Assembly (NCBI GenBank): GCA_030430615.1
Contig: JAUIKV010000005.1
Location: 1 to 32,865, forward strand
Direction: 5' to 3'
From: Bacteroidia bacterium
GTDB lineage: Bacteria > Bacteroidota > Bacteroidia > Flavobacteriales > Flavobacteriaceae
Length of the DNA stretch: 32,865 nt
Below, piece by piece: positions 19,480 to 28,674 of this stretch. Position 1 is the stretch's first letter. Each line of letters opens with the position of its first letter. The notes under the pieces are model-generated. The model had not been told where the DNA came from. It did no database searches and worked only from the letters and a program-made list of their open reading frames with translations. Position numbers and translations under genes: made by a program.

Positions 19480-19492
19480 GACATGAAATGTC
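19480..19492. promoter_or_regulatory. candidate operator GACAT-GAA-ATGTC
   Basis: Perfect 5-bp dyad in the divergent intergenic region; same dyad at 20680-20692. Confidence 0.5.
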
Positions 19493-19572
19493 ATGTGGTC
19501 ATAAAAAAGTTTCAACGCCTATTTTTCTTAAATTTACAGATAGGCCCTGAACTGCGAAAATACGTGGCAAAC

Positions 19573-20442
19573 ATGATAAAATACAATGACATCGGGGAGC
19601 TTTTGATTGACTTCAGGAGAATCAACAGCATGTCTCAATCAGACTTTGCAGATGCTCTGGATGTAGACATCCGCACCATTCAGAGATGGGAAAACGGAGC
19701 AACCCTGATCAAGCCTGAAAAGGAGGAGGACATTGTGATGCTTACATTGCTTCCTTATCAACTGATCAGGAACCTCAACGCGAGCATTCCCATTCCGACC
19801 TTTTACGATTTCAGTCTGCGAAAATACGCCCTCAACGAACTCGACGACGAGTTGCCTGAAGCTTCCTGGTTCAAGTCTAACCTGGAAAAAGCGACAAAGC
19901 GAATTCGCACCCTGGATCACGAGTCCGACATTGATTATTTGGAGCGCTACATGCAGTTTCATAAAAAAATCAATCGGAATCTGAGCGCCGTGATCAAGGA
20001 AGCCTCAAGGATTTTGCCTGAGATGAACCTGATAATTACCGATGATTCGGGTTACTACTCAGGTCATTCTTTGATTTTTCCGATCAAAGAAAGTGCCTAC
20101 ATGCGCCTTCGTTCTCGCGAAATGGATGAGAGCCAACTCAAAGTTGATGACCTGATGCGTCCTGACCAGGCAAAACGACCGATATACTACGGATTCGATA
20201 TCACTGCTGACTGCAATGACAATATCTTTTATATAACAGGACAATTGCTCCGTGTGATCCGGGAGAAATCCGATAAGGACTACCTGTATTGCGCGATCCC
20301 GTTTCGTTCGGACAATTTTGAACTGAACAAAGAGATAGGGCTGAATATCATCTGGGAAGGTGAGAAAGGTGTCAATCAATACGGACTGGAAGTGGCGCCG
20401 CGATTTCAGGAAGGCAACTTTCGGGACTTTCTAAAAAAATAG
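19573..20442 (+). CDS. XRE-type helix-turn-helix protein with uncharacterised (possibly GNAT-like) C-terminal domain
   Basis: INSMSQSDFADALDVDIRTIQRWENG HTH_XRE; start chosen at ATG 19573 (MIKYNDIGELL) because the ORF-track start 19483 lies inside the palindrome. Confidence 0.75.
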   Translation: MIKYNDIGELLIDFRRINSMSQSDFADALDVDIRTIQRWENGATLIKPEKEEDIVMLTLLPYQLIRNLNASIPIPTFYDFSLRKYALNELDDELPEASWFKSNLEKATKRIRTLDHESDIDYLERYMQFHKKINRNLSAVIKEASRILPEMNLIITDDSGYYSGHSLIFPIKESAYMRLRSREMDESQLKVDDLMRPDQAKRPIYYGFDITADCNDNIFYITGQLLRVIREKSDKDYLYCAIPFRSDNFELNKEIGLNIIWEGEKGVNQYGLEVAPRFQEGNFRDFLKK

Positions 20443-20753: not shown

Positions 20754-20783
20754 AAAAAAACCCTATAGAATTAGGGTTTTTTT
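20754..20783. terminator. bidirectional intrinsic terminator
   Basis: AAAAAAACCCTA-tagaat-TAGGGTTTTTTT, perfect 12-bp arms. Confidence 0.85.
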
Positions 20784-20866: not shown

Positions 20867-20935
20867 CTAATAGGAGTAGGTTCTATAATCTGACCACTGG
20901 ATTCGTTTGCTGCGTTTAAAGGTTGTCGTTCTCAT
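20867..20935 (-). CDS. micro-ORF A: MRTTTFKRSKRIQWSDYRTYSY* (22 aa)
   Basis: Paralogous at peptide level to micro-ORF B; differences are mostly conservative or synonymous; A-rich leader AAAAAACCAACATT before ATG. Confidence 0.6.
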   Translation of the reverse strand: MRTTTFKRSKRIQWSDYRTYSY

Positions 20936-20982
20936 AATGTTGGTTTTTTAAGTTTTCGGGGGTTAAAAGTTTTTTCTGTAGG

Positions 20983-20998
20983 TAACCGGGTACGGTTA
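20983..20998. other. perfect hairpin between the two micro-ORFs
   Basis: TAACCG-ggta-CGGTTA on plus strand. Confidence 0.5.
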
Positions 20999-21073
20999 TT
21001 AAGCTCTTACTGCATAATGTCTGTACTCTGACCACTGGATTCGTTTGCTGTGTCTAAATGCTGAAGTTCTCAT
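20999..21073 (-). CDS. micro-ORF B: MRTSAFRHSKRIQWSEYRHYAVRA* (24 aa)
   Basis: Paralogous to micro-ORF A; A-rich leader AACCAATAAAAATACAAATC before ATG. Confidence 0.6.
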   Translation of the reverse strand: MRTSAFRHSKRIQWSEYRHYAVRA

Positions 21074-21151
21074 GATTTGTATTTTTATTGGTTAATGCTT
21101 TAAGACGTTATTTTTAATTTGATTTACACTTATAAGACGACTCATTTGAAG

Positions 21152-21197
21152 TATTTGTTACAGTACTATGTATTACAAAGTACTATTTTAACAAATA
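21152..21197. promoter_or_regulatory. 46-bp hyphenated palindrome upstream of the micro-ORFs
   Basis: TATTTGTTA...TAACAAATA with internal AGTACT (21162-21167) and AGTACT (21179-21184). Confidence 0.55.
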
Positions 21198-21331
21198 TTT
21201 AATAATATCCTATATGTAAGTCACTGAAAAACAGCAACATAAATAAAAATAAAAAATCTGAAGTTTTTGAATTTTAACAAAAATATCGAATATTCATGTC
21301 GTGATTCTGGGTCAGAAATACGAAAATCGGC

Positions 21332-27242: not shown

Positions 27243-28520
27243 TCATTGAGCAGCAGGGGCTGGACGAGCGGTTTTTAGAAAAGGTTGCCATTTCAAGTAG
27301 GTGCCACATCTCCAGAGCCATTCAAGAGGTCCGTACCTGAAGCTTTTCAGCCAGTATTTGCTTAGTAAGGTCTGTATGATGATAAGACCGATTCCCATGA
27401 GAAAACAGATAAGTGCGCCAAAATGCCCTATGTATCCGAGCCCCCAACCGAAATAGAGAAAGGTGCCAATCACCGATTGCATGACGTAATTGGTGAGTGC
27501 CATTCTTCCGTAAGGGGCAAAAAAGGCCAGTCTTTTATTCCAGGACTGCTTCTGATAGAGCATTAAAAAACCGCATAAAATAATCGAGGCCATTGAAATG
27601 CTGACCCAGTCCATGAAATTCATGCCCAAAGCAAACTGCCAGGTTGAGAAATCGATGGGTTGTGGTGCGGTTGCAAATGTTGCGATCACAAACCCGACGC
27701 TAAGAATCAGTGCGCCGATAGACCAGAGCATGAAGTCTTTGATTTTCTTTGAATAGGCAGAAAGGTCCTTGAAGAGGCCGATTCGGCCCAGCCACAGTCC
27801 GATCAAAAAGTAAGCAAAAGTGTAGTAGAACCTACCAAAAAAAGAAACTTGAAAGTCGATCTTGGTCAGCATCCCGTAGGTGACATTGAGATAAAACACT
27901 TCTCCCAGGCTTCCGTTAGTTATCGTGTCGATATAGTTTTTAACCAGTTCATGGTTGTTGTCCATCATCGGATGCACGCCCGTTACACCTTCCGCGCCGA
28001 AGATGGCAAAGGCGATGAATCGCGGTATCCCGAGAAAGATGAGTCCCGCTGTGATAAGCAGCCATTTTGAAGACACCCTGTAAAACGGGATGATAAAAGG
28101 GGCCAGGACTGCGTAAATGGTCAGGATGTCCCCTCGGTAGAAAAGCTGGTGAACACAACCGATCAGGAACAACAAGAACGCCCGCCAGATAAAGCGGCCA
28201 CTGAATTTCTGACCTTTGTTTTGGGCCGAATCCATCTGAATGGAAAAACTCAGGCCGAACAGAATTGAGAAAAGCGCAAAAAATTTCCCGGTAAAGAAGA
28301 TACCGATAATTCCCTGGATGATCTGGTCGGGAATTCCGTTGACGCCTTCCATGAACCCTTCAGGATGTGGGCCAGCGATGTATTGCTCCACCATGTGAAC
28401 CAGGGCCACTCCGGCCAGGGCAAAACCTCTGAGGGCATCAATGGAGATGATTCTGTTTTTGACTGGGGGTGACAGGGTTTGGGAACTGGCAGTCATGGGC
28501 AGGTGATTAGGTCTACCCAA
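27243..28520 (-). CDS. DUF418 (YeiB-like) membrane protein
   Basis: ISIDALRGFALAGVALVHM, multi-TM, C-terminal FGPLEWLWR-type motif (YGPLEWLWRCGTYLKWQP). Confidence 0.88.
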   Translation of the reverse strand: MGRPNHLPMTASSQTLSPPVKNRIISIDALRGFALAGVALVHMVEQYIAGPHPEGFMEGVNGIPDQIIQGIIGIFFTGKFFALFSILFGLSFSIQMDSAQNKGQKFSGRFIWRAFLLFLIGCVHQLFYRGDILTIYAVLAPFIIPFYRVSSKWLLITAGLIFLGIPRFIAFAIFGAEGVTGVHPMMDNNHELVKNYIDTITNGSLGEVFYLNVTYGMLTKIDFQVSFFGRFYYTFAYFLIGLWLGRIGLFKDLSAYSKKIKDFMLWSIGALILSVGFVIATFATAPQPIDFSTWQFALGMNFMDWVSISMASIILCGFLMLYQKQSWNKRLAFFAPYGRMALTNYVMQSVIGTFLYFGWGLGYIGHFGALICFLMGIGLIIIQTLLSKYWLKSFRYGPLEWLWRCGTYLKWQPFLKTARPAPAAQ

Positions 28521-28674
28521 CTAGACGCTCAATCGATGGAATATGTTACTCTCTTTTTCGACTATTTTTCCTGGTAATTCTTATTCTTACTGCTTTCAAA
28601 TTCAATATGATGGAATTTTGGTTTATTTTTATGGATTATCAACAATCAATTTGCGAATTCTATTTTTTGATTAG

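Follow-up and report, generated by a model that had tools for sequence, protein, structure and literature searches.

A predicted microprotein operon behind an ECF-type promoter, with relatives across the Flavobacteriaceae

Tandem micro-ORFs in the window and their family

The window, by which we mean the whole stretch of 32,865 nt analysed here, carries two micro-ORFs of 24 and 22 codons on its minus strand, which lie 138 nt apart and share a common core, exactly as given in the preliminary description. Microprotein 1 (MRTSAFRHSKRIQWSEYRHYAVRA, 20999..21073) has homologues with intact frames and belongs to a family with a dN/dS of about 0.12. Besides the dN/dS, microprotein 2 (MRTTTFKRSKRIQWSDYRTYSY, 20867..20935) has a counterpart of 95% identity in the nearest relative (G001), where it is likewise part of a tandem pair. 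Both peptides contain a C-terminal core near their ends (SKRIQWSEYRHY and SKRIQWSDYRTY). A repeat search in the window revealed that leader and ORF together form a 67-nt direct repeat unit on the minus strand, whose two copies (20882-20948 and 21020-21086) are 81% identical at a spacing of 138 nt. The first cistron is preceded by an A-rich 5' leader (21074..21128, minus strand), with the transcription start predicted just past the -10 box. A third, longer paralogue (MKTDINTFATEDRRYVQFSNFKNAKRIRWSEHRHYGH) is found on another contig of the same genome. A match on contig C132 (L004) was dropped, as it lies antisense within an MFS transporter gene.

Downstream of the pair, the inverted-repeat search identified a perfect repeat of 12 bp with T/A tracts (AAAAAAACCCTA...TAGGGTTTTTTT, 20754..20783, readable on either strand). 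The terminator that had been proposed at this position stands as an inverted repeat, but the terminator consensus scan made no call there. The repeat could act as a terminator for both strands, with a convergent HTH gene on its other side. This gene (19483-20442, plus strand) encodes a protein of 319 aa that has an HTH_3 domain at its N-terminus, and it is separated from the microprotein operon by the repeat. A role as attenuation leader peptide is not supported, since the micro-ORFs are followed by the terminator-like repeat and then the convergent gene, with no regulated gene directly downstream.

A search with a single peptide was positive in 18 of 150 genomes, including 15 of the 22 from the window's genus, and a profile of 31 rows detected the family, termed A, in 44 of 301 sampled Flavobacteriaceae genomes. 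Five of 298 genomes in the order sample and three of 395 in the class sample were positive, all of them Flavobacteriaceae, so that family A was not found outside this family in either sample. Named carriers include Lutimonas, Maribacter, Eudoraea, Pricia, Kriegella, Muriicola, Euzebyella, Poritiphilus and Lutibacter. The loci read yielded 189 distinct family A peptides, among them a short class like that of the window (MRTTxFxxSKRIRWSExRxYAVKx) and a class of 37-38 aa (M[KR]...TPTE[SA]R...FSNFKNSKR[VI][RQ]WxExRNYxx), and 68 of the 93 distinct arrays contain two to five members. The peptides are basic, with a mean net charge of about +6 in members of 36-38 aa.

Selection on the peptide had been proposed from the window pair, which by itself, with five synonymous and seven non-synonymous changes, is insufficient to prove it. 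When 141 nearest-neighbour pairs of 37-aa members were pooled by divergence into three classes, dN/dS amounted to 0.115, 0.123 and 0.178 (0.12-0.18 overall); synonymous change thus far exceeds replacement change, and the proposal is borne out. Relatives with intact frames occur in many genomes, and neither a lack of homologues nor broken frames was seen. On this comparative evidence, both micro-ORFs are genuine genes.

In agreement with the earlier remark that no described family could be recognised, family A had no match above the curated cut-off in Pfam, NCBIfam or PHROG. Rfam gave no match at gathering score, and a PDB profile search returned short chance matches only. For the 37-aa class, AlphaFold predicted short, uncertain helices at a pLDDT of 60 and no confident fold. 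There was no match in phages, and plasmid matches stayed at chance level. Kinship with DUF7706 (PF24806) was set aside, as the similarity is confined to 15 residues of the KRIxWSExR stretch (E 0.013, 16 bits versus a cut-off of 27). Neighbour clustering around the arrays recovered lineage synteny only (EF-G-like and cold-shock-like genes, among others) and no common partner; likewise, no maturation enzyme, protease or exporter is conserved next to the arrays, and no signal peptide or double-glycine leader was seen in the peptide sequences.

The extended promoter and the microproteins behind it

At a distance of 62 nt before the first ATG of the window array lies an ECF-type promoter on the minus strand (21135..21166), composed of an extended -35 box GTACTGTAACA (21156-21166), a 16-nt spacer and the -10 box CGTCT (21135-21139). 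It was absent from the preliminary description, which had pointed out a large palindrome upstream of the genes; this palindrome exists as a 20-nt, 80% inverted repeat at 21149-21200 and overlaps the promoter. ECF-sigma promoters have AAC in the -35 and CGTC in the -10 box, and the window array shows both, at a spacing of 15-16 nt and upstream of a gene, as in an ECF regulon. The same element precedes most arrays in other genera: in most family A arrays, the first ATG recognised is preceded at 50-230 nt by GTAACA, 15-16 nt and CGTCT, the fuller consensus being GTACTGTAACAAA-N-TCGTCTaTTAaGT. A position weight matrix matched above the 99th percentile of shuffles in 73 of 93 arrays, a figure that is partly circular, because the matrix was trained on 68 of them. 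The GTAC extension, which is more than 90% conserved at arrays and includes the palindrome AGTACT, makes the -35 box longer than is usual for ECF sigma factors.

Since the consensus had been learned from the arrays, we searched the pattern GTACTGTAACA-N14-17-CGTC alone in the 301 Flavobacteriaceae genomes as an independent test, using the reversed pattern as control. It was present in 125 genomes with one or two copies each, versus five matches in all for the control, and many of the positive genomes lack family A. A micro-ORF with the C-terminal core followed within 450 nt at 99 of the 111 promoter sites read, which mostly come from genomes without family A, and at none of 31 control stretches. 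In the genus g162, both the extended promoter box and family C (see below) were missing from all 101 genomes; elsewhere the family C profile is sensitive (114 members in 65 loci, median E 9e-15). The promoter and the microproteins are present or absent together. Our computations show coding, conservation, the promoter and the linkage of promoter and peptides; the predicted regulation of the arrays from this conserved promoter is well supported, and its conservation indirectly indicates that the arrays are transcribed.

The micro-ORFs behind GTACTGTAACA-N-CGTC are arranged in tandem and share the C-terminal core [ST]K-x3-W[SN]-x2-R-x-[YF]. The commonest type behind the promoter sites read is family C, a 28-aa peptide in one to three copies (MRTLNNNQLTGTLNGTKSNxWNxKRRYR). 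The tryptophan is kept in 188 of 188 family A peptides and the arginine four residues later in 187 of 188; in family C both are kept in 142 of 142. Both families also have [ST] at -5, K at -4 and [YF] at +6 relative to the tryptophan, with a small polar residue at +1 (S/A/T in A, N in C), and a profile comparison with hhalign aligned them over 18 columns (P=1.1e-4). Family C is likewise under selection on the peptide (dN/dS 0.16-0.24).

Where the distance to the ATG of the array is about 110 nt longer, the gap is usually occupied by a first cistron of another type, family B (e.g. METLHPHQLRPRIYFEIGSGWNTDWLYDIKLKNNTNNN), a peptide of about 38 aa (PHQxRPRIYxxIGxGWNTDRxY) that precedes family A in many Maribacter-type arrays (L087, L089, L090, L036, L122 and others). 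It differs from family A in sequence and has the same promoter and the same W-x3-R-x-Y spacing. Family D, which often follows family C, comprises 44 aa and ends in WKGTKRYAH. In profile comparisons, homology to A found no support for B (P 0.19), and homology to C found only weak support for D (P 0.018); both were counted in by shared operon, promoter and similar W/R/Y ending. No match above the curated cut-off was obtained for family C in Pfam, NCBIfam and PHROG or for family D in Pfam.

Further divergent micro-ORF types follow the same promoter at three loci (L228, L229, L250), e.g. four copies of MRTSSETKNRKQFMNSEATSLGYFKRRIA and 44-aa types ending in WYSRRRYA. At L221, two extended promoters at a distance of 1 kb from each other are followed not by micro-ORFs but by paralogous 188-aa proteins that have a hydrophobic stretch at the N-terminus. 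An ExbD/TolR-like gene (MADIAFLLLIFFLVTATI...) lies within a few hundred nt after the family C/D arrays at L206, L207, L210, L220 and L227.

A candidate sigma factor

The shorter pattern GTAACA-N15/16-CGTCT, searched in four genomes, gave 23 matches versus 11 in the control; at this roughly two-fold excess about half of them may be due to chance, and the non-array matches are weak evidence. Matches recurring in related genomes belong to MacB-like ABC operons (MacB_PCD/FtsX, ABC ATPase), and single ones to a TolC-like OEP gene and, in G052, to an ECF sigma gene. In the window, a second GTAACA-N16-CGTCT site (28523-28549, minus strand) lies 26 nt before a gene for a DUF418 membrane protein (27243-28496, minus strand) and is kept in G001.

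The ECF sigma gene is the first of an operon with genes for putative anti-sigma and DUF4252 proteins (PF08281, PF04542, PF14060), and across the genomes examined (L154-L168) an operon of this make-up, with DUF4252 or related proteins, is conserved. In the literature searched, we found no function for this ECF/DUF4252 system. The operon encodes a regulator and not microproteins, but its own promoter has the core TGTAACA-N-TCGTCT, as do the arrays; in nine genomes of other genera it is preceded by TGTAACA...TCGTCTT, and in the window's genus this promoter reads TCGTG or TCGTCA and not TCGTCT. In none of the genomes examined is the operon linked to an array. The sigma factor occurs in 261 of 301 genomes, namely in 123 of 125 promoter-positive versus 138 of 176 promoter-negative ones (Fisher P=5.6e-8, partly an effect of genome size). 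The two positive genomes without it are MAGs with a completeness of 84% and 81%. A search of the window's genome (G000), an assembly that is only 84% complete, did not find this sigma gene, and in G001 only a C-terminal piece is present, consistent with a contig break. Based on these sequence data, we assume with moderate confidence that the DUF4252-linked sigma controls the arrays.

Nevertheless, the GTAC extension is absent from the promoter of the sigma operon and from most transporter promoters, so that a second regulator or another sigma factor could act on the arrays, and the extension may mark such an additional regulator. A second ECF sigma encoded near 11 arrays in Maribacter was set aside as regulator, since it has a different upstream sequence and no matching promoter.

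Proposed mechanism and alternative explanations

We consider it fairly probable that the window contains a two-cistron stress operon of a microprotein superfamily, transcribed from an ECF promoter, amplified in dosage and acting through the C-terminal basic-aromatic core. Read on the minus strand, the operon would start at the ECF-sigma-type promoter (21166-21135) and end at the terminator-like repeat (20754-20783). Its products would be members of a superfamily of basic Flavobacteriaceae microproteins of 22-44 aa, which share the core and are usually encoded by tandem cistrons, each with its own A-rich translation start. Under extracytoplasmic or starvation stress, the ECF sigma of the sigma/anti-sigma/DUF4252 operon would be released and would direct transcription not only of its own operon but also of some efflux-transporter genes and of the microprotein array, the tandem copies providing a higher dosage. 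The peptides would not leave the cell and would bind a single conserved partner (nucleic acid, the ribosome or an inner-membrane complex) via the tryptophan and arginine of the core. Their strongly basic charge, the lack of a recognisable export signal and the absence of a confident fold in models of the peptide alone fit with an ordering on nucleic acid, the ribosome or a membrane complex. In this scheme we infer the sigma identity, the inducing signal, the accumulation of the peptides, their intracellular action and the partner binding via W and R. A broader version is conceivable, albeit tentative: one private promoter class (GTACTGTAACA-N15-CGTC, one or two copies per genome) that serves only dosage-amplified microproteins (A, B, C and D) may constitute a family-wide, dedicated stress output, which would present the common W-x3-R-x-[YF] core to one conserved cellular target.

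The most serious alternative, though in our view an unlikely one, is that control of the arrays lies with another sigma or an additional transcription factor and that the DUF4252-linked sigma is not involved. The long extension with its palindromic AGTACT, missing from the sigma operon's own promoter, and the genus g162, which lacks the promoter box although its member G207 has the sigma, speak for such a regulator. Against it stand the core TGTAACAAA-N-TCGTCT, identical to that of the sigma operon's promoter, the co-occurrence with the sigma in 123 of 125 genomes and the different upstream sequence of the only other neighbouring ECF sigma. The peptides might also be secreted as signalling or antimicrobial peptides by MacB/TolC-type transporters of the same regulon, as they are cationic and occur in tandem copies with sequence variants, and genes for a MacB-like permease, an ABC ATPase and an OEP carry a related promoter. 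However, there is no export leader of the two kinds sought, the C-terminus is conserved while the N-termini vary, no exporter adjoins any array group, and the transporters could simply be defence genes, which renders this explanation improbable.

The lack of a maturase or exporter among the array neighbours weakens a dedicated export as well as the idea of modified peptides. RiPP precursors are also small, tandem and marked by a conserved motif, but the conserved part here is C-terminal and not a leader, and no conserved maturase, protease or transporter lies beside the arrays, so that we give this idea very little credence. Type I toxin arrays such as ldr and ibs, which encode hydrophobic membrane peptides silenced by antisense RNAs, resemble the present loci in having several near-identical micro-genes in a row; in contrast, our peptides are basic and polar (net charge about +5) with a W/R/Y core and no hydrophobic stretch, and a strong, conserved stress promoter precedes the arrays, which makes a toxin-like role quite improbable. 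Hardly any weight remains for a functional RNA or DNA repeat with incidental ORFs. Such transcripts could be annotated as sRNAs, as in the case of the ECF-promoter transcript Rfp11 of F. psychrophilum (PMC9723704), but a dN/dS of 0.12-0.24 in two families, frames intact throughout and the lack of an Rfam match already contradict this reading.

ECF regulons and tandem small genes are both known kinds of system, and the libraries and literature searched contain no description of these microprotein families. As far as the literature could be searched, a family-wide promoter class whose targets are almost exclusively microprotein arrays with a common motif is new. Genes as short as 22-44 codons usually escape annotation, and here one promoter pattern exposes them in about 40% of the sampled Flavobacteriaceae genomes. 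With a core motif and a candidate sigma at hand, their role can be tested directly in marine genera that grow in culture (Maribacter, Eudoraea, Lutimonas); if the sigma assignment is true, the ECF/DUF4252 system gains an output.

One of the closest described counterparts is the SM6 class of ECF promoters in F. psychrophilum, which has a CGT box and is induced by low nutrients (PMC9723704). As in our case, an ECF-type -10 CGT box is combined with an ECF/anti-sigma operon and an ABC ATPase among the targets, and another target, Rfp11, is a short independent transcript that was called a regulatory RNA; the main text of that study, in contrast, describes no microproteins (PMC9723704). Our data suggest that some ECF-driven Flavobacteriaceae transcripts recorded as small RNAs may be microprotein messages.
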